From a candidate division Zixibacteria bacterium SM1_73 (GTDB lineage: Bacteria > Zixibacteria > MSB-5A5 > SM1-73): DNA of 34,644 bases. The notes beneath the pieces are model-generated. The model worked only from the letters and a program-made list of their open reading frames with translations, did no database searches and was not told the origin of the DNA. Positions 14,470 to 33,106 of this stretch are shown piece by piece. How positions within the stretch are numbered: the stretch's first letter is position 1; each line of letters opens with the position of its first letter. Location of the stretch: positions 1 through 34,644 of the forward strand of contig LJVD01000027.1 of NCBI GenBank assembly GCA_001304225.1, given 5' to 3'. The translations under genes were made by a program, and so were the position numbers.

Positions 14470-15975
14470 ATGGCAAAAAAGTTATTCATTTTAGTGATTT
14501 TGCTTTTGGTAACAACGCCCACTTTTGCCCAGGTTGACACCGCCTGGGTGAGAAGATATAATGGCGGCTACGAGGATGTTGCTTATGCCATAGCGGTAGA
14601 TGGTTGTGACAATGTCTATGTGACTGGATATAGTTGGGTAAGTGGGTCATGGGAGGACTACGCCACTATAAAATACTATCCTAACGGAGAGACTGCTTGG
14701 GTGAGAAGGTACAACGGACCAGGAAGCGGAGGTGATGTGGGTCATGCTATCGCAGTAGATGTTTCTGGCAATGTCTATGTGACAGGACCAAGTTATGACA
14801 GTGTGACAAATCATGACTACGCCACAATAAAGTATTATCCCAATGGAGAAGTTGGTTGGGTCAGAAGATATAACGGACCCGGAAACAAGGATGATGTCGC
14901 TAATGGTATAGCTGTAGACAGTTTGGGGAATGTGTATGTAACCGGATACAGCTCGAATGGCACAAACTATGACTATGCAACCATAAAGTATGATGCAGAA
15001 GGGAATCAGGATTGGGTAAAAACGTATGATGGAACTGGGAGTGCAGATGATTATGCCTGGGCAATAGCTGTAAGGGCTTCTAATGTCTACGTTACCGGAC
15101 GTAGTATTGGCCCTGGAACACACTATGACTACGCCACCATAAAATACTACGGTAATGGAGACACCGCCTGGGTAAGAAGATATGACGGAGAGTCATATTA
15201 TGTGGATGAGGCGTATGCCATAGCCGTAGATAATTCGGGGAATGTTTATGTGACCGGAAAAAGTTTTAACCCTGGAACACGCTTTGACTATACCACTATA
15301 AAGTATTACCTAAATGGAGATACAGCTTGGGTAAGAATATACAGAACCGGGGAAAATCTTTTGGATATAGCTAAGGCCATAGCTGTAGATGCTTCTGGTT
15401 GTGTATATGTGACAGGAGAAGGCATGAGCTATGGATCCTCCACCAACATTATCACTATTAAATATTACCCGAATGGAGATACCGCTTGGGTGAGAGGCTA
15501 CAATGGCCCAGGAAACCTGTTTGATTCTGGAGATGCTATAGCTTTAGATGATTTTGGAAGTGTGTATGTGACAGGCCACAGCTGCAACGCTAACCCAGAC
15601 GATGATTACGTCACCATAAAGTATTATCCCAATGGAGAAGGCGCTTGGGTAATAAGGTACGATGGGCCAGACCACGGGCTTGACGACGCTTCTGCCATAG
15701 CTGTATCTCATTCCGGCAAAGTCTATGTGACCGGCTACGGTTTCGGCGACTACGCCACCATAAAGTATGTTCAGACTTTGCGTGGCGATGCCAACGGAGA
15801 TGGAGTGATCAATTCGGCTGACGTTGTGTATTTGATAAATTACCTCTTTAAAGGCGGACCCGCTCCTGAGCCTTTGGAGGCTGGGGATTGTAATTGTGAT
15901 GGGATCATCAATAGCGCTGATGTGGTTTATCTGATCAACTATCTGTTCAAAGACGGTCCCCCACCCGGTTGTTAG
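14470..15975 (+). CDS. Secreted SBBP-repeat propeller protein with C-terminal dockerin
   Basis: A 501-residue protein with a signal peptide (about residues 1-20, ending TFAQ). Eight SBBP-type repeats of 48-54 residues follow, with the consensus [10 protein letters not shown]-x(n)[15 protein letters not shown](n)[11 protein letters not shown], suggesting an eight-bladed beta-propeller. From about residue 437 comes a type I dockerin with two calcium loops, [20 protein letters not shown] and [20 protein letters not shown]. Such dockerin tails are frequent on secreted proteins of FCB-group candidate phyla and may tether the protein to a cohesin or the surface. AAGGAG precedes the ATG. Repeat 6 is the most diverged. 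Confidence 0.88.
14530..15770 (+). repeat. Eight tandem coding repeats of about 155 bp
   Basis: The DNA encoding the SBBP blades repeats with a period of about 150-160 bp. Recurrent words include GCCTGGGT(G/A)AGAAGATA, AATGTCTATGTGAC and CTACGCCAC(C/T)ATAAA. The copies are diverged at third codon positions, so the repeats are old and held by selection on the protein. Confidence 0.75.
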
Positions 15976-19889: not shown

Positions 19890-21257
19890 TTGTTTAAAAA
19901 GATATTGATCGCCAATCGCGGAGAGATTGCACTCCGTATCATCCGCGCCTGCAAGGAGCTGGGCATAGCCACGGTGGCCATCTTTTCCGAGGCAGACAGA
20001 GGTTCTCTCCATGTCCGCTTTGCAGACGAAGATGTCTGCATAGGTCCTGCCAAATCCCAGGATAGCTATTTGGACCCTAAAAGAATAATCAGTGCAGCCG
20101 AGGTCACCAACTCAGATGCCATCCATCCCGGCTACGGTTTTCTGGCTGAAAATCCCGATTTTGCCGAGATCTGCGAATCTTGTGATATGAAATTCATTGG
20201 TCCCTCCTCTGAGATGATCAGGTTGATGGGGGACAAGGCCTGGGCAAAAAAGACCATGCGCGATGCAGGCGTCCCTGTCATACCAGGAAGCGAAGGAGTG
20301 GTGGAGTCGGTGGAAAGAGCTTTAAGCATCTGTTACCAAATAGGCTTTCCGGTTATCATCAAAGCTGCCTATGGGGGAGGAGGGAAAGGAATGAGAATTG
20401 TCAGGGATGAGGATGAGTTGAAAAAAGGACTGGAGATGGCACAATTGGAAGCGGGAAGCGCTTTCGGTAATCCTGCAATTTACGTCGAGAAATATATCCC
20501 CAATCCCAGGCATATAGAATTTCAAATTCTGGGCGATGGCTTCGGAAATATCATTCATCTGGGAGAGAGAGATTGCACCGTCCAAAGGAGACATCAGAAA
20601 CTTCTGGAAGAATCCCCATCCCCAGTTCTGGATGACGATCTGCGTAAAAGGATGGGAAGGGCGGCGACAGATGGTGCAGGAAACGTGGGCTACCAGAGTG
20701 CGGGGACCATGGAGTTTCTATTAGATGAGGACAGGAACTTCTACTTCATGGAGATGAATACCCGGATTCAGGTAGAGCATCCAGTCACCGAGGAGGTCAC
20801 GGATATAGATTTAATAAAGGAACAAATTCGTCTGGCCTATGGGGAAAAACTTGCTCTTTCGCAAGAGGATATCTCTTTGAAGGGACACGCTATCGAGTGT
20901 CGGATAAATGCTGAAGATCCTCAAAGAGACTTCCTTCCCTGCCCTGGAGTTATCACCAGCTTTCACATTCCCGGCGGTCACGGCATCCGTGTGGATACTC
21001 ATGCCTATGCTAAGTACGAAATCCCCTCTTTCTATGATTCGATGATTGCTAAATTGATTGCCCATGGAAAGACAAGGGAGGAGGCGATTTTGAAAGCCAG
21101 AAGGGCTTTAGAGGAGTTCATCATCGAAGGAGTGGAAACCACCATCGAATTTCATAGGAAAATCCTTTCGGACAAAAGATTTATAAGTGGCAGATTTGGC
21201 ACCTCTTTCGTGGAAGATTTGTTCAAAGAAAAATTGGAGGAGGTGGGAAAATATTAA
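19890..21257 (+). CDS. accC: Biotin carboxylase of acetyl-CoA carboxylase
   Basis: A 455-residue ATP-grasp enzyme that carboxylates the biotin of Acc[17 protein letters not shown] is the family's N-terminus. Others are the glycine-rich loop [34 protein letters not shown] and the active-site stretch [15 protein letters not shown]. Length is close to E. coli AccC (449). I choose TTG 19890, with GGGAG 5 nt before it, because it gives the usual [14 protein letters not shown] start; TTG 19878 in the track would add four residues. It forms a broken accB-pilT-accC set; no accA or accD is seen here. Confidence 0.95.
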
Positions 21258-21287
21258 TTTGAGGAATGTTCGGTTCACGGTGACGAT

Positions 21288-21372
21288 GCTCGTATCGTTG
21301 CTCGAAGCTGGTCAATCGAAGTTTCGGTTTTTTTCGAACATCGGGTTTCGACTAACGAGTATCGATACGAGC
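21288..21372. repeat. Inverted repeat GCTCGTATCG / CGATACGAGC
   Basis: Two 10-bp arms (21288-21297 and 21363-21372) enclose 65 nt rich in TCGAAG words. A palindrome GTATCGATAC overlaps the right arm. It lies between accC and gcvH and may be a decayed short mobile element. No glycine riboswitch features are seen. Confidence 0.45.
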
Positions 21373-21423
21373 TTCGTAAACGATAAACTAATAACGCGAA
21401 TACTTTAGATCCAAGGAGGAATC

Positions 21424-21822
21424 GTGGAAGTAAAGGTGGAAATAAGGGACGATCTGAAATATACTAAAGAGCATGAGTGGGTGAAGGTGGAAGGAGATGA
21501 GGTCACGGTGGGGATTACAGATTATGCTCAAAAACAGTTGGGGGATGTGGTCTTTGTGGAGCTGCCGCAGGTGGGAACACAGGTGGAGCAGATGAAGCCT
21601 TTCGGGGTGATTGAGGCGGTAAAGGCAGTTTCCGATCTTTTTGCACCTCTCTCCGGCGAGGTGACCGAGGTTAACACCCAACTGGAATCGCAATCCAACC
21701 TGATAAATTCGGACCCTTACGGACAAGGATGGATCATCAAGATCAAGGTGAAAGATCCAAAAGAGCTTGAGGCTTTACTCTCTTCTGCTGATTATAGGAA
21801 ACTGGTGGAAAGCAAAGCTTGA
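21424..21822 (+). CDS. gcvH: Glycine cleavage system H protein
   Basis: A 132-residue lipoyl carrier protein of the glycine cleavage complex. LKYTKEHEWVKVEGDEVTVGIT is the usual start, GDVVFVELPQVG follows, and GVIEAVKAVSDLFAP contains the lipoylated Lys67. It shuttles the methylamine group from GcvP to GcvT. It starts at GTG 21424 with AAGGAGG upstream. gcvPA lies 160 nt downstream; gcvT is absent from the window. Confidence 0.95.
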   Translation: MEVKVEIRDDLKYTKEHEWVKVEGDEVTVGITDYAQKQLGDVVFVELPQVGTQVEQMKPFGVIEAVKAVSDLFAPLSGEVTEVNTQLESQSNLINSDPYGQGWIIKIKVKDPKELEALLSSADYRKLVESKA

Positions 21823-21983
21823 TCATGGAACCCCCAGCCGGGAGGAAACCCGTATGGTTTGGCGTCAGCTCCTCTAAGAAAAAACTAAGTCTTAAATTCA
21901 TTCGTAGAGTTTGCCTTTGTCCACACTGCTTTAGCTTCTTTGGAGCTGCACCGTCCATTTCCTGATTAAGATTATGGTATCAT

Positions 21984-23324
21984 ATGAGCAACGTTCCCAA
22001 TACCGAACATGACAGAGAGGAGATGCTGAAAAGAATCGGGGTGGCAAGTTTTGAAGACCTGATTCAATGCATTCCTGAATCCATCCGCCTTAAAAAAGAA
22101 TTAAATCTTCCTCGACCTCTATCCGAGCCTGAGCTGAGCAGGCTTTTAACGGAATTATCTTCTCAAAACAAAAATACTTCTCAGGTCATCAGCTTCTTAG
22201 GAGGAGGAGCATATGATCATTTCATCCCTGCAGTTGTGGATCACATAATCTCCAGATCAGAATATTACACGGCTTATACGCCTTATCAGGCGGAGGTGAG
22301 TCAGGGTACACTTCAGACCGTATATGAATTTCAGTCCCTGATCTGTGAGCTAACCGGGATGGATGTAGCCAACGCCTCCATGTATGACGGAGCCACGGCA
22401 GTGGCGGAGGCGGCTTTGTTGGCTCACGGGCAGACCCAAAGAGAGCAGGTTCTGGTGGCCGGCTCACTCAATCCCAGCTATAAGGAAGTTCTTTCTACTT
22501 ATTGTGGATCAATCAGGCTCAAGGTAAAAACTCTGCCTTCAATTGATGGGTTGGTTGATCTTGAGGCGGTCAAGAAAAGCATTTCCGAAAAGGTCGCCTG
22601 CGTGATCTTACAAAGCCCCAACTTTTTTGGATTGATTGAAAATATCGAAGATATAGAACCTATGGCTCATTCAGTGGGCGCTCTTTTGGTTTTAGTCTGT
22701 GATCCGATCTCTTTAGGAATTTTGAAACCTCCAGGTGAATATAACGCTGACATTGCGGTGGGCGAAGGGCAGGCTTTGGGAAACAATCTATCCTTTGGAG
22801 GGCCATACTTCGGTTATTTTGCCAGCAAACGAAATTTGGTCCGAAGGATGCCGGGAAGGATTGTGGGCGCCACAACTGATACTCAGGGAAGAAGGGGCTT
22901 CGTTCTAACCCTTCAGACCAGAGAGCAGCACATAAGGAGAGAAAAAGCCACCTCCAACATCTGCACCAATCAGGCTTTGTGCGCCTTAGCTTCTTGTGTT
23001 TACCTTTCCCTCCTCGGGAAATCCGGAATCAAAAAGGTAGCTGAATTGTGCTTACACAAAAGCCACTACGCTTTTGACGAAATCACCAAAATGGAAGGAT
23101 TCAAAAAGAGATTCGATGCGCCCTTCTTCAAAGAATTTGTAGTCCAAACGCCGATCCCACCGAAGAGAATAATAGGATCACTTATGAAAAGAAATCTCTT
23201 TGCTGGAACCGATTTATCACAGTTCGATCGAAAACTGAAGAATTGTCTTCTGATGTGCGTTACCGAAAAGAGAACTGAAGAAGAGATCGATTATTTGGTG
23301 GATGAGTTGAGAAAATTGGTTTAA
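21984..23324 (+). CDS. gcvPA: Glycine dehydrogenase (decarboxylating) subunit 1
   Basis: A 446-residue subunit of two-component glycine decarboxylase, which with GcvPB forms the P protein. The N-terminus NVPNTEHDREEMLKRIGV, the segment YTAYTPYQAEVSQGTLQTVYEFQ and AVGEGQALGNNLSFGGPYFG are family signatures. It has the fold of PLP enzymes but lacks the PLP lysine, which is in GcvPB. Length is normal (about 440-450). The Shine-Dalgarno is weak. Its partner is 2.1 kb downstream, an unusual separation. Confidence 0.95.
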   Translation: MSNVPNTEHDREEMLKRIGVASFEDLIQCIPESIRLKKELNLPRPLSEPELSRLLTELSSQNKNTSQVISFLGGGAYDHFIPAVVDHIISRSEYYTAYTPYQAEVSQGTLQTVYEFQSLICELTGMDVANASMYDGATAVAEAALLAHGQTQREQVLVAGSLNPSYKEVLSTYCGSIRLKVKTLPSIDGLVDLEAVKKSISEKVACVILQSPNFFGLIENIEDIEPMAHSVGALLVLVCDPISLGILKPPGEYNADIAVGEGQALGNNLSFGGPYFGYFASKRNLVRRMPGRIVGATTDTQGRRGFVLTLQTREQHIRREKATSNICTNQALCALASCVYLSLLGKSGIKKVAELCLHKSHYAFDEITKMEGFKKRFDAPFFKEFVVQTPIPPKRIIGSLMKRNLFAGTDLSQFDRKLKNCLLMCVTEKRTEEEIDYLVDELRKLV

Positions 23325-23327
23325 ATA

Positions 23328-23360
23328 GCAACAATGAATTGTTGCACTCCTGGAGTGCAA
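23328..23360. repeat. Two overlapping hairpins after gcvPA
   Basis: GCAACAA-tgaa-TTGTTGC (23328-23345) and TTGCACTC-ctg-GAGTGCAA (23342-23360) share the TTGC at 23342-23345, so only one can form at a time. No T-run follows on the + strand. It could be a processed or attenuating RNA structure, or two adjacent palindromic repeats. Confidence 0.45.
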
Positions 23361-23478
23361 AAAACTTTGTTTTTGCGAAGTGCTAAAAACAACAATGATT
23401 CTATAAGCCTCTAAACCGCACGGTTCGGGGCAAGCACACCAGAGTGGAAAAACTGTGTTTTTGCAAAATACTTGAAAT
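23351..23478 (+). repeat. Imperfect direct repeat upstream of the zinc-ribbon gene
   Basis: The segment TGGAGTGCAAAAAACTTTGT and what follows (23351-23388) recurs as AGAGTGGAAAAACTGTGT and what follows (23441-23478), both continuing into TTTTTGC and a short run ending in AAA. The second copy runs up to the start of the next gene. A palindrome AACCG-ca-CGGTT (23414-23425) lies between. Confidence 0.45.
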
Positions 23479-23483
23479 GGATT

Positions 23484-23813
23484 ATGTTTTGCCCAAATTG
23501 TAGATACGAGTATAAACCGGGAATAGAACAATGCCCCGATTGCGGAGCAGACCTGGTGAAAAAGTTGGACGAGCCAAAGCTGGCGGTTGAAAAAGAATCG
23601 AAGTTCGTATTTCTTTGTGTCGCTCAAGATCTAGTATCTGCCACTCTTATAAAGGAAACATTGGAATTTAATGATATACCATGCTTGGTGAAGAGTGCGG
23701 GAGGGATAATGGCGACCCTTGAGCCGTTGTCGGGGCAAGCTGAAATTTATGTTCCAGAAGAAAAATATGAAGAGAGTCGAAAGATCAAAGAGCAATTGGT
23801 GAATGGTCTTTAA
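23484..23813 (+). CDS. Zinc-ribbon/DUF2007 protein, paralogue 1
   Basis: A 109-residue protein. FCPNCRYEYKPGIEQCPDCGADL is a CxxC-x(n)-CxxC zinc ribbon. Residues 35-108 match DUF2007 (putative signal-transducing protein domain), with ATLIKETLEFNDIPC and a final EIYVPEEKYEESRKIKEQL. The function is not known. I choose ATG 23484 over TTG 23472, because the family starts right at the ribbon. A diverged paralogue follows at 23988. Both lie between gcvPA and gcvPB. Confidence 0.8.
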   Translation: MFCPNCRYEYKPGIEQCPDCGADLVKKLDEPKLAVEKESKFVFLCVAQDLVSATLIKETLEFNDIPCLVKSAGGIMATLEPLSGQAEIYVPEEKYEESRKIKEQLVNGL

Positions 23814-23987
23814 TAGAAGATGGTTTTGGGAAAGGCAGTCGGGAGTGTCTGCCTTCAGGCAGACCATAAAACCGCTGAAGAAAGTTTTGGATTTTGATCC
23901 AGAAACCTATTTTATGCTTTTAGGCTTCTCATGAAATTAAAGAGATGACAAAGGGTTTTTCTACAGTCTTATTTGGAGAAAAGAATT

Positions 23988-24347
23988 ATGCCGTTCTGTC
24001 CTTTATGTAAGGCTGAATACAGTCCGGGGACAAAAAGATGTCCTGACTGCGAATGCGATTTAGTGGACGAGCTTCCGGAAGAAGAGGAGGCGGAGGATTT
24101 AAGGGTGGAGGATAAACCTGAAAATCTGGTTCTTTTATACAGCACTCGCAATCGTGTCTATGCAGAGTTTCTAAAGGAGACTTTGGAGAATGCCAATATC
24201 CCCTGCTATATAAAATCTCTGGGGAGCTTCTTAGAAGAAGGATTGGGTTATGCGACTAAGGGGAAAGGCGGCTACAGAATCTATGTTCCTGCGGATAAAT
24301 ATGAAGAAAGCATGGCCATAAAAGAACAAACCGTGGGCGATCTTTGA
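23988..24347 (+). CDS. Zinc-ribbon/DUF2007 protein, paralogue 2
   Basis: A 119-residue protein with the same architecture as its neighbour: a zinc ribbon (FCPLCKAEYSPGTKRCPDCECDL), an acidic linker (PEEEEAEDL) and a DUF2007 domain (AEFLKETLENANIPCYIKS, then RIYVPADKYEESMAIKEQ). I choose ATG 23988, with GGAG about 9 nt upstream, over TTG 23973. It lies 42 nt before the selenoprotein gene and may share its transcript. No function is known. Confidence 0.8.
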   Translation: MPFCPLCKAEYSPGTKRCPDCECDLVDELPEEEEAEDLRVEDKPENLVLLYSTRNRVYAEFLKETLENANIPCYIKSLGSFLEEGLGYATKGKGGYRIYVPADKYEESMAIKEQTVGDL

Positions 24348-24389
24348 CCCACCCTTTAAATCATTTAACTCTTAGCGGGAGAAGCACAA

Positions 24390-25244
24390 ATGAAAAGGGA
24401 AGCTTTGGTGATAGCAGTTTTGTTTTTGGGAGCAATTCTTTTTAGCTCCTGTACCCAGGAAGTGCCTGAGGGAATCGAATGGGCTTCCTCTTTGGACGAT
24501 GCCTTGAAAACTGCCCAGGATCAAGGCAAGTACATAATCGCTGACTTTTGGTCAGATGGGTGAAAGTGGTGTGAGAGGTTGGAGGATTCAACCTTTACTA
24601 GCGAAGATGTGATCGCTTTGTCCAGAGACATGATCTTTGTGAAGGCTGAGGCTAAGAAAGATACTGCCGTAGGGGAACAGTATGAAATTGCTGGTTTTCC
24701 CACCATCATACTCATGAAGAGCTCGGGTGAGGAGATAGACAGAATTTACGGTTATCTTCCGCCAGAAGAGTTCGTGTCGACCATTCGAAATTACTTAGAA
24801 GGTAAAGAAACCCTGGAAGATATAAGAAATAGATTTCAAGCAGATTCAACCGATGTGGAGCTTGCCTTTAAGTTGGCGGATAAATATGAAGCGCGCAGAG
24901 GGTATGACGAGGCTTTTTACTACTACCAAAAAGTGGTGGATTTGGATCCGGAAGATGAAAAGGGGAAGTCACAAGATGCGCTCTTTAACATAGCCTGGCT
25001 GGAAATTAGAAAGAAAGACTATCCTGAAGCTGTAGATGCCTTCAAGAATTTTTTGGAGAAATATCCGGAAAGCAAAATGGCTCAGGATGCTGAAATATAT
25101 ATTCCCTACGCCTATGCCCAAGCCGCTGATACCGCCAAAGCTTTAGAGCTTTATCAAAAATTCTTAATAGATCACCCCGACTCTAAGGATAGCAGCTGGG
25201 TGAGGGAAAAGATCGAGGAATTGAAAGAAGGATCAGCGGATTAA
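24390..25244 (+). CDS. Predicted selenoprotein: lipoprotein with thioredoxin-like UxxC domain and TPR region
   Basis: The ORF track shows only 24579-25244, but the same frame extends upstream through one TGA (24561-24563) to ATG 24390. Read through, it gives 284 residues. Residues 1-21 form a lipoprotein signal with the lipobox FSSC (Cys21). Residues 35-140 are a thioredoxin-like domain: ADFWSDG-U58-K-W-C61-ERLEDSTF, then IAGFPTIILMKSSGEE with the cis-Pro. The TGA falls exactly on the first Cys of CxxC, so it most likely encodes selenocysteine. Residues 145-280 are TPR helices (EAVDAFKNFLEKYPESKMAQDAEI and the following pair). TGA serves as a normal stop elsewhere, and a SECIS-like hairpin follows. 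It should act as a periplasm-facing, membrane-anchored redox protein. The alternative is a nonsense mutation. Confidence 0.8.
24561..24563 (+). other. In-frame TGA, predicted selenocysteine codon (Sec58)
   Basis: The codon replaces the N-terminal Cys of a thioredoxin CxxC motif, giving U-K-W-C. Coding homology continues without break on both sides: ADFWSDG before, KWCERLED after. This makes a chance stop less likely than recoding. Confidence 0.75.
24574..24596 (+). promoter_or_regulatory. Candidate bacterial SECIS hairpin
   Basis: The stem pairs AGAGGTTGG (24574-24582) with TTCAACCTTT (pairing 24588-24596), about nine pairs with two G-U, and the loop is AGGAT with two G residues. It begins 10 nt after the TGA. 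Bacterial SelB binds a short stem-loop at this distance with a G in the loop; the E. coli fdhF element has a GGTTGC-AGGTCT-GCACC core of similar look. The hairpin also encodes RLEDSTF. Confidence 0.65.
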
Positions 25245-25287
25245 AGGGTCAACGGATGGAGCGGATTAAACGGATGAAAATATCTAT

Positions 25288-25328
25288 GTCGGGTTGCGCC
25301 CCCGCCTCTGGCGGGAGAGCTACCCGAC
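25288..25328. repeat. Nested palindrome GTCGGGT...ACCCGAC
   Basis: The outer arms are GTCGGGT (25288-25294) and ACCCGAC (25322-25328). The inner hairpin is CCCGCC-tct-GGCGGG (25301-25315). No T-run follows. It looks like a dispersed palindromic repeat after the selenoprotein gene. Confidence 0.55.
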
Positions 25329-25343
25329 AAAAGGAGACCGATT

Positions 25344-25396
25344 GTAGTTGCCCAATTTATTGGGCTCCTTATAAGCTCGATAAATCGAGCAACTAC
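25344..25396. repeat. Three-way-junction palindromic element before gcvPB
   Basis: The outer stem GTAGTTG (25344-25350) pairs with CAACTAC (25390-25396). Inside are two perfect hairpins, CCCAAT-tt-ATTGGG (25351-25364) and GCTCGAT-aa-ATCGAGC (25375-25390). The design of two hairpins closed by an outer stem recurs at 27673 and 33235. Confidence 0.6.
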
Positions 25397-25466
25397 AGTT
25401 GGGTAATTTTTCCAGAAACCTGAGAAGACCTGCTGGACAAGATTACAATCACGGAGTTTTGAATAG

Positions 25467-26927
25467 ATGAGCGAAAAACTGATATTTGAACTTTCTTCAC
25501 CCGGAAGAAACGGGTATTCCTTGCCTCAATTGGATGTGCCTGAGAAGAAGATAGAAGAGTTATTGCCTAAGGAGAAAATTAGAGAAAAAGAGCCTCTCCT
25601 ACCAGAGGTCAGCGAGGTGGATGTGGTCAGGCATTTTGTCAGAGTCTCCATTATGAACCATCATGTGGATAAGGGATTCTATCCTCTGGGTTCCTGCACC
25701 ATGAAATATAATCCCAAAATAAATGAAACCCTTTCACGCCTTCCTGGATTTTCGTATCTTCATCCTCAGCAACCCGAAGGAACTTGTCAAGGCGCGTTAA
25801 AATTAATGTTTGAGCTGGGAGAGTATCTCAAAGAGATTGGTGGAATGGATGAGATAACCTTGCAGCCATCCGCTGGAGCGCAAGGGGAATTGGCGGGTTT
25901 GTTGATGATCCATGCTTATCATAAGAAAAAAGGGAATCCCAGATCCAAGATCATCATTCCCGACTCAGCTCACGGCACCAATCCGGCCTCCGTGGTCACA
26001 TCGGGGCATACCACAGTTCAGATCAAATCCAATGAAAAGGGACTGGTCGATTTGGAGGAACTGAAAAGGGCAACCGACGAAGAGGTTGCAGCTTTGATGC
26101 TGACCAATCCCAATACCTTGGGTCTTTTTGAGTCTCAAATATCGGAGATTTCCCAAATGATCCACGATGCCGGAGCACTCCTTTACATGGACGGAGCCAA
26201 TCTAAACGCCATGATGGGTATGGCTAAGCCAGGAGATATGGGGTTTGATGTAGTTCATTTCAACCTGCATAAGACCTTCTCCACGCCCCATGGTGGAGGT
26301 GGTCCAGGTTCAGGGCCAGTGGGAGTGAAAGAAAACTTGGCTCCTTTTCTTCCTGTCCCTTTGGTGGCTAAAAGAATAAATAAGAAGGGGGTGGAGGAAT
26401 ATTACTTTGATTTCAAGCGTCCCGATTCGATCGGAAGAATGCATAGTTTCTATGGTAACTTTGGAGTATTGGTGAAAGCCTATTGCTATATCCGGCAAAA
26501 CGGAGCATCCGGCTTAAGGGAAGTCAGTGAGAATGCAGTTATCAACGCTAATTATTTGAAAGAAAGTCTCAAAGGGCATTATCACCTTCCTTATCCTGAC
26601 CATTGTCAACACGAGGTGGTTTTTTCTGGAACAAATCAAAAAACCAAAGGAGTAAAGACTTTGGACATCGCCAAAAGGCTTTTGGATTTTGGACTGCATG
26701 CACCAACAGTATATTTCCCCCTGATCGTTCCCGAAGCTTTGATGATAGAACCCACCGAGACTGAAAGCAAGGAGAGTCTGGATGAATTTATCCAGGCCAT
26801 GATTCAAATTGCAGAAGAAGCCGAAAAGAATCCTGAAATAGTCAAATCTGCCCCACACAATACACCGGTTACCCGGTTAGATGAAGGCAAGGCTGCCAGA
26901 GATTTGGATGTGAGATGGAAGGGGTAA
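25467..26927 (+). CDS. gcvPB: Glycine dehydrogenase (decarboxylating) subunit 2
   Basis: A 486-residue PLP-dependent subunit that decarboxylates glycine together with GcvPA and passes the methylamine to Gcv[34 protein letters not shown] and HGTNPASV are family motifs. [19 protein letters not shown] holds the PLP lysine, Lys269. The C-terminus ends [23 protein letters not shown]. Length is as expected. It is separated from gcvPA by the zinc-ribbon pair and the selenoprotein gene. ATG 25467 has a GGAG about 11 nt upstream. Confidence 0.95.
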
Positions 26928-27381: not shown

Positions 27382-27740
27382 CAGATTATATTGTTGTTTT
27401 TGTGACTGCTGCATCTGAAAAGGAAGGCGAAAAAATAGCTCAAGCTTTGGTGAAAGAAAGATTAGCAGCTTGTGTGAATATTGTTCCCGGAATGAAATCT
27501 GTATTTCGCTGGAAAGGGCAGATTAGCACGGAAGAAGAAGCTCTGTTGATAATTAAAACTAAAGATAGGCTCTTCGAGAAGTTGAAAAAGAGGATAATCG
27601 AACTTCATAGTTATGAGGTTCCGGAGATTGATAAAGGGGTTCTAAAAAAGTCAAGCCGGGAAAGATTTTACTGGAGTGTCAAGCTTCAGCTTGACCCGAA
27701 AGCTATCGAAACTCAAAGAGCTTTTACATGGTTCACCTAA
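27378..27740 (+). CDS. cutA: Divalent-cation tolerance protein CutA with altered C-terminus
   Basis: A 120-residue trimeric protein of PII-like fold. VFVTAASEKEGEKIAQALVKERLAACVNI, FRWKGQISTEEEALLIIKT and ELHSYEVPEI are strongly conserved family motifs. After FYWSV (near residue 100) the sequence KLQLDPKAIETQRAFTWFT is unlike CutA and coincides with a palindromic element (27673-27753). The normal end of about 105 residues has been replaced by repeat-derived codons, and the TAA lies in a hairpin loop of the repeat. Its role in copper tolerance is doubtful in many bacteria. Confidence 0.9.
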   Translation: MTDYIVVFVTAASEKEGEKIAQALVKERLAACVNIVPGMKSVFRWKGQISTEEEALLIIKTKDRLFEKLKKRIIELHSYEVPEIDKGVLKKSSRERFYWSVKLQLDPKAIETQRAFTWFT

Positions 27741-28397: not shown

Positions 28398-29174
28398 ATG
28401 GGAAACAAGATAATAACCCTGCTCACAGATTTCGGCACCAAGGACGGCTATATAGGTGCAGCCAAAGGGGTGATCAAAAGGATCAACCCGCAAGCTGAAA
28501 TCGTGGACATCACACACGATATTGATTCATGTGACGTATTTGGCGCCTCCTTTGCTCTGAACAATTTCTACAGATATTTTCCCAAAGGAGCCATTCATCT
28601 GGCGGTTGTGGATCCGGGAGTGGGAAGCCAGCGTCAGCCGATGTTGATAAAAACTAAAGACTTCTTTTTTGTAGGTCCGGATAATGGGATCTTCAGTTTC
28701 ACTTATGAAAGAGAGGATTTGACTGACATTGTTGTGATTTCAAACAAAAAGTATTTCCTGGCAGAATTGTCCAGCACCTTTCATGCCAGAGATATCTTCG
28801 CTCCGGTAGCAGCATATCTTTCCTTAGGTGTCAAAACCGAGGAGTTCGGATTACCCGCAAAAGAATGCATGAAATTTATCATTCCTCGACCTGAATCAAA
28901 AGGTAAAGGTCTAAAGGGGCAGATCATACATATTGATCGCTTTGGCAATCTGATCACCAACTTTCCAGCCGATCTTTTGGAAAAGCAGAAAATTGCGGAA
29001 ATAAGGGTGGGAAAAAGAAGGATAAAGGGAATAAGTGCATCGTATTTTGAAATAAAGGGATTAGGTGCTCTTATTGGGAGTTCGGGCTTTTTGGAATTGG
29101 CAGTGAATCAAGGCAGTGCACAGAAGCTTTTGAAAGCAAAAGTCGGCGAAGGGGTAGGGATTGATTTTGAATAA
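28398..29174 (+). CDS. SAM hydrolase/halogenase-fold protein (DUF62)
   Basis: A 258-residue protein of the SAM hydroxide adenosyltransferase family, which splits S-adenosylmethionine to adenosine and methionine. [19 protein letters not shown] holds the catalytic Asp, [13 protein letters not shown] holds the Arg, and [11 protein letters not shown] holds the His and the family signature. [12 protein letters not shown] is a C-terminal motif. The halogenases of this fold need a chloride- or fluoride-binding pocket, which I do not see. Its end overlaps the longest form of the deaminase ORF by 14 nt. Confidence 0.88.
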
Positions 29175-29796
29175 AAGGAAAAACTTCACATTGGATCGGA
29201 AAATAAACAAACCCCTAAAAAGAAAAACAAACGCCCAGAAATCCCCTCTCCCCGCTGGGGAGAGGGATAGGGTGAGGGGGCAACATCGCATCAAAAGCGA
29301 AAAGGTTGGTATCAAACCTAATAGAACCCGCCCCTCCTGGGATGAATATTTTATGAACATAGCCGAATTGGCGGCTACCCGCTCCACCTGTTTGAGGCGT
29401 CAGGTGGGTTCGGTGATCGTAAAGGACAAAAAAATATTAACCACAGGGTACAACGGTGCACCATCCGGACTCAAACACTGTCTGGACATAGGTTGCCTCA
29501 GAGAAAAGTTGGATATCCCTTCAGGAGAGAGGCATGAGCTGTGCAGAGCCACTCATGCGGAACAGAACGCCATCGTTCAAGCAGCTTTGTTTGGCGTAAG
29601 TATAAAAGATGCCACCTTGTATTCCACCACCCACCCATGTATTTTATGCACGAAGTTAATCATCAATGCGGGTATACAAAAGATGGTGATCAAAGACAGC
29701 TATCCAGATAAGATGTCCAGAGAGATGTTGAAGGAGGCAGGAGTCAGAATTCAGATTTTTAAAAGTCAGAAAGTTAAAAAGCGAGGAAAGACATGA
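29161..29796 (+). CDS. dCMP/cytidine deaminase with repeat-derived N-terminal extension
   Basis: The deaminase domain begins at [21 protein letters not shown] (about residue 57) and contains the zinc motifs [11 protein letters not shown] and [10 protein letters not shown], as in dCMP deaminase/ComEB. It supplies dUMP for thymidylate synthesis. No start codon lies directly before RPSW. Candidates are TTG 29161 (211 aa), GTG 29272 (174 aa, with GGAGAGGG 5 nt upstream) and ATG 29353 (147 aa, which cuts the RPSWDEYF motif). A palindromic repeat at 29243-29280 lies in frame between the upstream start and the domain and carries the GTG and its Shine-Dalgarno. The true start is open; the product is certain. 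ATGA couples it to nrdR. Confidence 0.85.
29243..29280. repeat. Palindromic repeat copy inside the deaminase ORF
   Basis: CCCTCTCCCC-gct-GGGGAGAGGG (29244-29266) is followed by GGGTGAGGGGG (29270-29280), the right arm of the repeat. The left arm CCCCCTCACCC and the second inner hairpin are missing, so it is a shortened copy. In frame it encodes [13 protein letters not shown]. Confidence 0.7.
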
Positions 29797-30395: not shown

Positions 30396-31121
30396 ATGGT
30401 GAAAGAACTAAAACAGATGGGCTTTCTGGAGCATCTGGAGGAATTAAGAGGAAGGATAATCAAATCTCTTGTCTCCATCATCCTTTTTTCCATCGTGGCG
30501 TATTTTTTTTCAGAAAAACTGATAGATTTTGTCTCCAAGCCCATTCCTGAGCTTTATTTCATGTCACCCACAGAAGCTTTCGCCACAAGGATTAAGCTCT
30601 CCCTGATAGCCGGGATAATTGCCAGCGTGCCGGTGATATTTTATCATTTGTGGCAGTTTGTGGTGCCAGGACTTTTTGAAAGAGAAGTCAAACTGGTGGT
30701 TCCGGTGGTGCTCTCTTCCACCATTTTCTTTTTAATTGGAGCAACCTTTTGCTTTTTGCTTGTGTTACCTTTAAGCATGAAAATTCTTTTGGGATTCGGG
30801 ACGTCAAAACTGAAGCCCATGATAAGAATCGGAGATTACATCAGTTTCATAGGTTATCTAACTTTAGCCTTTGGAGCTGTCTTTGAGCTTCCGGTTATCT
30901 CTTATTTTCTGGGAAAACTGGGAATAGTAACTCCTCAGACTTTGATAAAGGGGAGAAAATATGCTGTCGTGGGAATCTTAATTTTGGCGGCGGCGCTTAC
31001 CCCTGGTCCGGATGTGTTTTCTCAATTAATGTTAGCGGGGCCTCTCTATTTCCTTTATGAAGTCAGCATCGTGGTGGTCAGAATCGTTCAAAAGAAAAAG
31101 AAGGGGGAAGAACAAGAATGA
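30396..31121 (+). CDS. tatC: Sec-independent protein translocase TatC
   Basis: A 241-residue inner membrane protein with six transmembrane helices, which recognises twin-arginine signal peptides. FLEHLEELRGRI is the N-terminal signature. YHLWQFVVPGLFEREVK and FGAVFELPVISYFLGKLGIVTP are core motifs, with the conserved Glu in FELP. I choose ATG 30396; the ORF form from 30270 adds 42 residues not found in the family. tatA and tatB are not in the window. It overlaps the solenoid gene by ATGA. Confidence 0.93.
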   Translation: MVKELKQMGFLEHLEELRGRIIKSLVSIILFSIVAYFFSEKLIDFVSKPIPELYFMSPTEAFATRIKLSLIAGIIASVPVIFYHLWQFVVPGLFEREVKLVVPVVLSSTIFFLIGATFCFLLVLPLSMKILLGFGTSKLKPMIRIGDYISFIGYLTLAFGAVFELPVISYFLGKLGIVTPQTLIKGRKYAVVGILILAAALTPGPDVFSQLMLAGPLYFLYEVSIVVVRIVQKKKKGEEQE

Positions 31122-33106
31122 AAAAAGTGATGTCAATCCTATTATTGGGTTTGGCAATCTTTTCCGGAGGTTATTCTCCAATAAGCTCTCAACAGGAAAC
31201 GATTTTGCTGAGCGATTCAAAAGCATCATGGCAAGCTGCGCTTCATGATGCTCTAAAATGCATAAAGATGACCCCAAGCGATTTGACTTTCAGAGATGAT
31301 TATGTGGATGTAGATTCCTTTAGGTTAAAACTTATCGATTCTTTCATGCACAAGCCTTTGGATGTTATCCTTTTCAATAATTCTATCAGTCAAGACTTCA
31401 AACAAGCCACTCTGAGTTCAGAACTTGATTTGATTCCTTCTTTTGCCGCTTATCTTCAAGCTAAATCTATAGAAGATTTGCTATCTAACCGAGAAGCCAA
31501 GGATTTAGTGATTGATCCCGAAGCCAATAGATTTCTAATGCATTACTCGAAGGCATTAAAAGACCTTCCTTTTGCTCTAAGGAACTCTCTTTGTTATCTA
31601 TTCGAGGGTTTATACCTGGCAGATTCTCTGTCCCGGGAAGCCTTTGTCGATCTTACCGACGAAGAGAGAAATTTCATCAAGAACAACTTTCCGGTTATCC
31701 TTTTAGAGGACGTAAGAGATGAATTCAAGTCTCCAGAGGAATTAGACCAGGAGATGAAATACGAAGAAGGCCTTGCCAAAAACATGATCCCTTATTTGGA
31801 GAAAATAAAGAGGGAGAAGATTTATGAGGCAGGGATAAAACTTTCTTTAGCAGCCAAAGCCTCTCTTTCGATTATGAAAGATTATTTGGAGAGTGAATCT
31901 CAGATAAAACCAATTACAAAAGATAAATTGAAAATCCCGCCAAAGGCGGGGAAAGATTTAGAAAATGATATCATCTTTAGATTGGATACCTCTTTTGGCC
32001 AGTTAGTCATTGGAGGATTTGGATCCACTAACTATCGGGGAACTCCCGCAGTGATAATAGATCTGGGAGGAGATGACCTTTATTCCTTGTCAAAGATTGA
32101 CGAGGAGAGCACAAACTCTTCGGCGATCATCGACCTGGCTGGAGATGATATTTATCGATCAGAAGGTGACTTCCTCTTCGGAGCTGGCTTCTTGGGATGC
32201 GGCATCTTGGTGGATGTGTCCGGGAATGATACATATCTGACAGATAATTTCTCCTTAGGTTCCGGTCTTTTTGGCGTGGGGATGCTTGTGGATGAGGAGG
32301 GAGATGATAAATATTTCGGGGACACTTTCACTATGGGAGCAGGGAGCTTCGGTTTAGGCGTTTTAGTTGATATTAAGGGAGCTGACCAATACACTGCTGC
32401 CCTTTACGCCCAGGGTTTTGGATTTATATCCGGATTTGGGGCTTTGATTGACTCATCCGGAAATGATAATTACTTCGCGGGAGGAAAATACAAGGATATT
32501 CTTAGATATAAAGATCATTATATAAGTCTATCTCAAGGTTTCGCATATGGCCTAAGACCCATGATGTCGGGTGGAATCGGACTGCTCTATGACCTATCGG
32601 GAAACGATCTTTATACTTCCGATATTTTCGGCCAGGGATCAAGTTATTGGTGGGCATTGGGAAGCCTCGTGGATAAAGAGGGGAACGACAAATATGTTTC
32701 TTATCAATATGCTCAAGGTGCAGGAACACATCTAACCCTGGGAATTCTGGAAGATGGATCAGGAGACGACGTTTACATATCTAAGGGCGTATCGCAGGGA
32801 TGCGGTCATGACCTGGCTTTGGGATTTTTGTATGATAAGTCAGGCAATGATGATTATATCGCTTGCGATCTGTCTCAAGCTGCGGGAAGCGCCAACGGAA
32901 TCGGAATGCTTATAGATGAAGAGGGAAATGATGGTTATTATGTGGAGAAGACGAACAATACTCAGGGATATGGAAATCCAAGAAGGGATTATGGCTCGAT
33001 AGGAATCTTTTTGGATTTGTCGGGAAGTGATCATTATGATGGAAATGGAAAAGACAGCACCTGGTGGATCATACCATCCAAATGGGGAGTGGGAATAGAT
33101 AGGTAG
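31118..33106 (+). CDS. Exported 12-repeat solenoid protein with D-x-x-G-x-D-x-Y motifs
   Basis: A 662-residue protein with a signal peptide (about residues 1-24). Residues 25-290 are helical and unrecognised. From about residue 310 there are 12 repeats of about 26 residues with the consensus G-x-L-x-D-x-S-G-N-D-x-Y-x(5)-x-Q-G-x-G, for example ILVDVSGNDTYLTDNFSLGSG. The pattern, with Asp and Gly at turns, suggests a beta-solenoid that may bind calcium, as in RTX-like sequences, but the RTX nonapeptide itself is absent. Repeat 6 has a 20-residue insertion. It overlaps tatC by ATGA. I do not know a named family. It is probably periplasmic or outer-surface. Confidence 0.8.
   Translation: MKKVMSILLLGLAIFSGGYSPISSQQETILLSDSKASWQAALHDALKCIKMTPSDLTFRDDYVDVDSFRLKLIDSFMHKPLDVILFNNSISQDFKQATLSSELDLIPSFAAYLQAKSIEDLLSNREAKDLVIDPEANRFLMHYSKALKDLPFALRNSLCYLFEGLYLADSLSREAFVDLTDEERNFIKNNFPVILLEDVRDEFKSPEELDQEMKYEEGLAKNMIPYLEKIKREKIYEAGIKLSLAAKASLSIMKDYLESESQIKPITKDKLKIPPKAGKDLENDIIFRLDTSFGQLVIGGFGSTNYRGTPAVIIDLGGDDLYSLSKIDEESTNSSAIIDLAGDDIYRSEGDFLFGAGFLGCGILVDVSGNDTYLTDNFSLGSGLFGVGMLVDEEGDDKYFGDTFTMGAGSFGLGVLVDIKGADQYTAALYAQGFGFISGFGALIDSSGNDNYFAGGKYKDILRYKDHYISLSQGFAYGLRPMMSGGIGLLYDLSGNDLYTSDIFGQGSSYWWALGSLVDKEGNDKYVSYQYAQGAGTHLTLGILEDGSGDDVYISKGVSQGCGHDLALGFLYDKSGNDDYIACDLSQAAGSANGIGMLIDEEGNDGYYVEKTNNTQGYGNPRRDYGSIGIFLDLSGSDHYDGNGKDSTWWIIPSKWGVGIDR

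Follow-up and report, generated by a model that had tools for sequence, protein, structure and literature searches.

A probable selenocysteine in an exported thioredoxin–TPR protein encoded within the glycine cleavage cluster of Zixibacteria

Introduction

The CnoX/YbbN chaperedoxins, which are cytoplasmic partners of GroEL, carry an N-terminal thioredoxin domain followed by TPR repeats, and to our knowledge none of them is a selenoprotein. The protein described here has the same order of domains, but it differs from them in having a signal peptide and a UxxC motif and in the arrangement of its domains (TM-score 0.30). Two papers (PMC6282202, PMC8129009) describe CnoX as a chaperedoxin with both a holdase and a redox function. 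With the C-terminal (gamma) domain of DsbD and with DsbH, which are among its nearest solved thioredoxin folds by both sequence and structure, our protein shares the fold; it lacks the membrane electron-carrier and alpha domains of DsbD and is a stand-alone signal peptide, thioredoxin domain and TPR tail.

Among selenoproteins, the closest described kind is found in a 2026 catalogue of 119 prokaryotic families (PMC13188914), Table 1 of which includes, under the name 'thiol:disulfide interchange protein', a PF13098 UxxC family represented by WP_011366075.1. Our protein likewise has a Thioredoxin_2 domain and a UxxC motif with Sec first, whereas the TPR tail, the lipobox and the phylum Zixibacteria are absent from the description given in that catalogue, and it is by this description only that the two are set apart. 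The best NCBIfam match was TsoB (NF045694, a rhodanese/DsbD fusion-like selenoprotein), of which the C-terminal thioredoxin part, residues 433-570, was aligned (E 2.5e-18); however, the score was 65.5 bits against a cut-off of 805, and neither a rhodanese nor a DsbD part is present in our protein. A Leptospira 'thioredoxin family protein' (WP_000735721.1) resembles it in having a membrane signal, a thioredoxin domain and a TPR-like tail, with residues 10-231 matched, but belongs to another phylum, has the Cys form (CSYC) and is only 23.6% identical.

Results

The gene and its active site

We analysed a stretch of 34,644 nucleotides from candidate division Zixibacteria bacterium SM1_73, here called the window. 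The frame at 24390-25244 (ATG to TAA) is preceded by a purine-rich GGGAG and contains a single in-frame TGA, at codon 58, in the context ADFWSDG-U-KWCERLED, where it takes the first Cys position of the thioredoxin CxxC (U58-K-W-C61). The first-pass annotation had placed the TGA there, and translation of the frame confirmed this; its remark that gene callers begin at 24579 and lose the active site also agrees with the mechanical ORF list, in which the ORF starts at a TTG at 24579, on the 3' side of the TGA. The features of the gene are as follows.

24390..25244, plus strand: selenoprotein gene as read here, with signal peptide, thioredoxin domain (UxxC) and TPR tail; 284 residues with U58, TAA stop
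24390..24452, plus strand: predicted signal peptide, a hydrophobic stretch then SSC; its FSSC resembles a lipobox, with Cys21 presumed to carry the lipid
24513..24797, plus strand: thioredoxin-fold domain, residues ~42-136, with cis-Pro at P104 (Pfam, alignment and model)
24561..24563, plus strand: TGA codon, as read here for Sec58, which opens the UxxC motif (TGA in 69 homologous genes, a Cys codon in 54)
24570..24572, plus strand: TGT, Cys61, resolving cysteine of UxxC (codon and alignment columns)
24574..24596, plus strand: predicted bacterial SECIS hairpin AGAGGUUGGA-GGA-UUCAACCUUU, with a 10-bp stem, a GGA loop and an energy of -8.9 kcal/mol, spaced 20 nt from the UGA
24855..25232, plus strand: TPR-like helical hairpins, residues ~156-281 (Pfam, model and Foldseek)

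When the whole window was screened for TGA codons with a frame open for more than 45 codons upstream and more than 100 downstream and with a SECIS-type hairpin of at most -5 kcal/mol, only two were found, the second being at 29402 on the minus strand, antisense to the ORF 29161-29796.

Export, fold and proposed function

Based on Pfam the protein contains Thioredoxin_2 (PF13098) at residues 42-129 (E 4.5e-14, 53.1 bits against a cut-off of 27) and, C-terminal of it, TPR_6 (E 2.1e-12). A signal peptide, as judged by eye, was seen at the N terminus of the window protein and of nearly all full-length homologues. A lipobox-like Cys was found with a loose pattern in 22 of 69 U forms, 35 of 53 Cys forms and all three Ser forms, with motifs such as LSSC, LNSC and LWSC in the relatives; the FSSC of the window protein at residues 18-21 has, compared with [LVI][ASTVI][GAS]C, a Phe at -3, which is less common than Leu. 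To judge from these N termini, export is the constant of the family and lipidation varies. The lipid anchor proposed in the first-pass annotation is probable for the window protein, which has a lipobox-like motif, and fails as a family-wide feature. Two further exported proteins are encoded on the plus strand of the window, one at 14470-15975 with repeats and two dockerin-like repeats at its end, and one of 662 residues at 31118-33106 with many GxGxLxDxxGNDxY-type repeats.

The AlphaFold2 model, made from a 58-sequence alignment with the TGA as Cys, has a mean pLDDT of 95.5 and shows a thioredoxin fold to residue ~136 followed by helical hairpins. We propose the following course of events. The UGA at 24561-24563 would be decoded by SelB and Sec-tRNA with the aid of the downstream hairpin, for which the computational evidence is strong, and the signal peptide, as its sequence strongly suggests, would take the product across the inner membrane, where the window protein is probably lipid-anchored. 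Homology and model point to a thioredoxin fold like that of DsbD-gamma and DsbH, with Sec58 and Cys61 as its redox pair, of which Sec58 would attack and Cys61 resolve. The targets that this pair reduces are most likely disulfides or oxidised thiols on envelope proteins; recharging may come from CcdA/DsbD-type membrane carriers, and two DsbD_TM proteins are encoded in the genome. The TPR tail would hold clients or a partner, and Sec may raise the rate or the oxidation resistance of the nucleophile, with Cys able to replace it. We give about an even chance to this reading of the protein as an envelope reductase of disulfides or oxidised thiols.

A different function, with the protein still a selenoprotein, would be that of an envelope chaperedoxin, i.e. 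a CnoX/YbbN-like holdase outside the cytoplasm rather than a simple reductase, which would protect envelope proteins through a mixed disulfide or selenosulfide and then hand them on. Over the full length, Foldseek matched E. coli YbbN (E 2.1e-9) and the homologous Salmonella protein best, and both share the domain order of our protein, but the global TM-score of 0.30 reflects a different domain arrangement and the identity is 17%. Moreover, the thioredoxin part was closer to DsbD-gamma and DsbH and the tail to BamD/YbgF types, with consensus TPR also among its Foldseek matches, and the signal peptide puts the protein away from GroEL; the chaperedoxin, the main rival of the reductase reading, is in our view rather unlikely.

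Homologues and Sec machinery

A homologue (match at E 1e-20) was found in 122 of 133 Zixibacteria genomes. Codons were read from the DNA of the matches after three doubly fetched loci had been taken out, and the 126 genes that cover column 58 have TGA in 69, TGC or TGT in 54 and Ser in three cases; column 61 is Cys in nearly all homologues. Since 69 homologues within the phylum have TGA at the same column and 54 have a Cys codon there, chance is excluded. When 58 members were aligned with Cys in place of the TGA, no variation was seen at column 58, P104-T105 or R118, and PF13098 was matched in all 58. Outside this survey, a contig scan with a Cys-version query returned one close relative, Candidatus Zixiibacteriota bacterium PFL53, and two matches at the level of the TPR; the scan, which relied on Cys peptides translated back into DNA, has little power to detect TGA forms. 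A plasmid search gave distant Cys thioredoxins only.

The assembly of the window's genome (2.22 Mb, 147 contigs) is 77% complete and contains the four sel genes on a single contig (C8): selB at 20048-21901 (361 bits), selA at 22039-23406 (580 bits), selD at 23523-24449 and tRNA-Sec at 27559-27650 (62.9 bits; SeC with anticodon TCA according to ARAGORN). This selD (L047) also encodes a selenoprotein: an in-frame TGA stands in SFG-U-ASK, with a SECIS-type hairpin after it. Across the 133 genomes, selA was over the cut-off in 117 and tRNA-Sec in 107.

We put the probability that TGA 24561-24563 is a selenocysteine codon, and the gene that of a selenoprotein, at about 94%. This reading rests on the Sec machinery, the U and Cys homologues, the SECIS-type hairpin and the purifying selection upstream of the TGA. 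The first-pass annotation had called the gene a selenoprotein and named selA to selD and homologues with Cys at this column as the points to check; both were found, and the exchange of U and Cys and the synteny presented below support the call as well.

Four TGA-bearing genomes (G070, G096, G099, G128) had neither selA nor tRNA-Sec over the cut-off, and their selB matches were partial or to generic elongation factors. Missing contigs are the likely explanation; the completeness rating of G128 is 100%, and the alternative for the four genomes is a real loss of the Sec machinery. These genomes are what speaks for a mechanism other than Sec insertion, by which the UGA would be read as Cys, Trp or some other residue. 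However, Cys accounts for 54 of the 57 forms without TGA and the site is that of a redox CxxC, the Sec machinery is found in nearly all remaining genomes, and a SECIS-type hairpin follows the TGA, which makes such read-through very improbable.

The SECIS-type hairpin

In the bacterial SECIS model of PMC13188914, the loop has 3-9 nt with a G in the first two, the spacing is 16-37 nt and the stem 4-16 bp, and the minimum free energy must also be no higher than -7.5. Our scoring used perfect stems and stem-only energy within the loop and spacing limits of that model. The 69 U genes reached a mean of -5.89 kcal/mol against -1.55 in their synonymous recodings, and 78% of them reached -5, compared with a mean of -1.96 against -1.15 in recodings and 12% reaching -5 for 52 Cys genes. 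The difference between U and Cys genes was significant (Mann-Whitney p 1.3e-10) with kinship ignored; a tree-based pair test of hairpin against U favoured the association by about 5 to 0, on a number of pairs too small for significance (median p 0.06). By the stem-only score 20% of the U genes, the window's gene included, have -7.5 or lower, and 9 of 69 have no hairpin under the published model as scored here.

None of 300 synonymous recodings of the window's gene gave a hairpin as good as its own. In the window background, about 1-2% of 60-mers reach -8.9. The hairpins differ by clade, with spacings of 16, 17, 20 and 23 nt, and within the largest group, whose loop is GGUC, 22 U genes have G-C and 10 have C-G at the stem pair 21-36. 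The Cys neighbour of the window gene, L017, lacks the window hairpin (-1.8). Four other Cys forms (L110, L085, L097, L103) retain a strong hairpin of the SECIS type downstream of the Cys codon, and these are probably fossils of a recent change from Sec to Cys.

Selection and exchange at codon 58

Compared with the nearest relative, dN was 0.169 and dS 0.866 before the TGA, and 0.133 and 1.146 after it, which shows purifying selection on the codons that precede the TGA as well as on those that follow. That the TGA is a true stop, be it in a pseudogene, by a sequencing error in a TGC/TGT codon or between two products with a restart at TTG 24579, agrees with standard ORF calling, which ends at the TGA, but is refuted by the comparative data and retains practically no probability, because 69 genes share the TGA at this column, both sides of it are under purifying selection, a SECIS-type hairpin follows and the Cys orthologues are uninterrupted.

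When the U/C state was mapped on a tree of 124 proteins, built with U masked, about 18 changes were needed; the tree was made quickly and many of its forks are weak, and the starred branches by themselves force 9-11. In-place differences were also seen between sister pairs of the same genus (L016 TGA and L017 TGT; L091 TGA and L085 TGT; L135 TGA and L110 TGT).

Ser was observed in the active site of several members, at both residues in L027 (SKWS) and L073 (SAYS), at the first in L056 (SPWC) and at the second in L041, L053, L059 and L126 (CPWS). L027 and L073 show that the predicted redox centre can disappear while the gene persists. As both active-site residues are replaced by Ser and the gene is retained, these two lineages speak for a putative redox-independent job of the protein, and members with one or both residues Ser may have such a role.

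Gene neighbourhood

The gene lies among genes of the glycine cleavage type, and its conserved neighbours in the window are listed below, with the gcv names assigned from sequence, as were the accC and ABC names used further below.

21424..21822, plus strand: gcvH-type gene (glycine cleavage H protein), conserved neighbour
21984..23324, plus strand: gcvPA-type gene, conserved upstream neighbour
23973..24347, plus strand: zinc-ribbon/DUF2007 protein, frequent upstream neighbour, with a further copy at 23472-23813
25467..26927, plus strand: gcvPB-type gene, conserved downstream neighbour

Same-strand genes for gcvP subunits were found both up- and downstream at 66 of the 81 loci whose flanks were long enough, among them 38 loci of the U form, 26 of the Cys form and 2 of the Ser form. 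Other neighbours were, upstream, accC (63 loci), gcvH (54) and a zinc-ribbon/DUF2007 gene (49) and, downstream, an ABC ATPase (52). Because this synteny is common to U, Cys and Ser forms, the U and Cys forms are mostly orthologues that changed in place. Second copies outside the gcv cluster belong mainly to family f19 (L127, L131, L137, L138, L140, L141).

Phylum-wide, an exported redox gene together with one or two DUF2007 zinc-ribbon genes is lodged between gcvPA and gcvPB (21424-26927 in the window; 81 loci). We rejected a functional link to glycine cleavage, as the protein is exported whereas GcvH and GcvP are cytoplasmic, and for the same reason the shared cluster is taken as co-expression only.

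Discussion

The protein is a member of a new selenoprotein subfamily whose UxxC active-site kind was already known. The first-pass annotation had called it an undescribed selenoprotein, which holds for the architecture, with its TPR fusion, and for the lineage, but not for the active site, which is the PF13098 UxxC kind of the 2026 catalogue as far as Table 1 describes it. In the portions examined of that catalogue (PMC13188914) and of the deep-Sep paper we found no TPR-fused and no Zixibacteria entry, and in the literature found to join Zixibacteria with selenoproteins or selenocysteine there was no mention of a thioredoxin. The catalogue of selenoproteins thus gains an exported, TPR-fused architecture.

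More tentatively, the family may consist of phylum-wide envelope 'seleno-chaperedoxins', in which a Sec-thioredoxin is joined to a TPR client holder within the glycine cleavage cluster, with many in-place replacements between Sec and Cys and with fossil SECIS hairpins in recent Cys forms.

At least 69 genes in one phylum lose their active site under standard ORF calling, and because the active site is cut off in this way annotation can easily overlook the redox role of the protein. Within the family, Sec and Cys have also been exchanged in place between close relatives while the gene context stayed constant, and this natural series makes the benefit of selenium compared with sulfur directly testable outside the cytoplasm.
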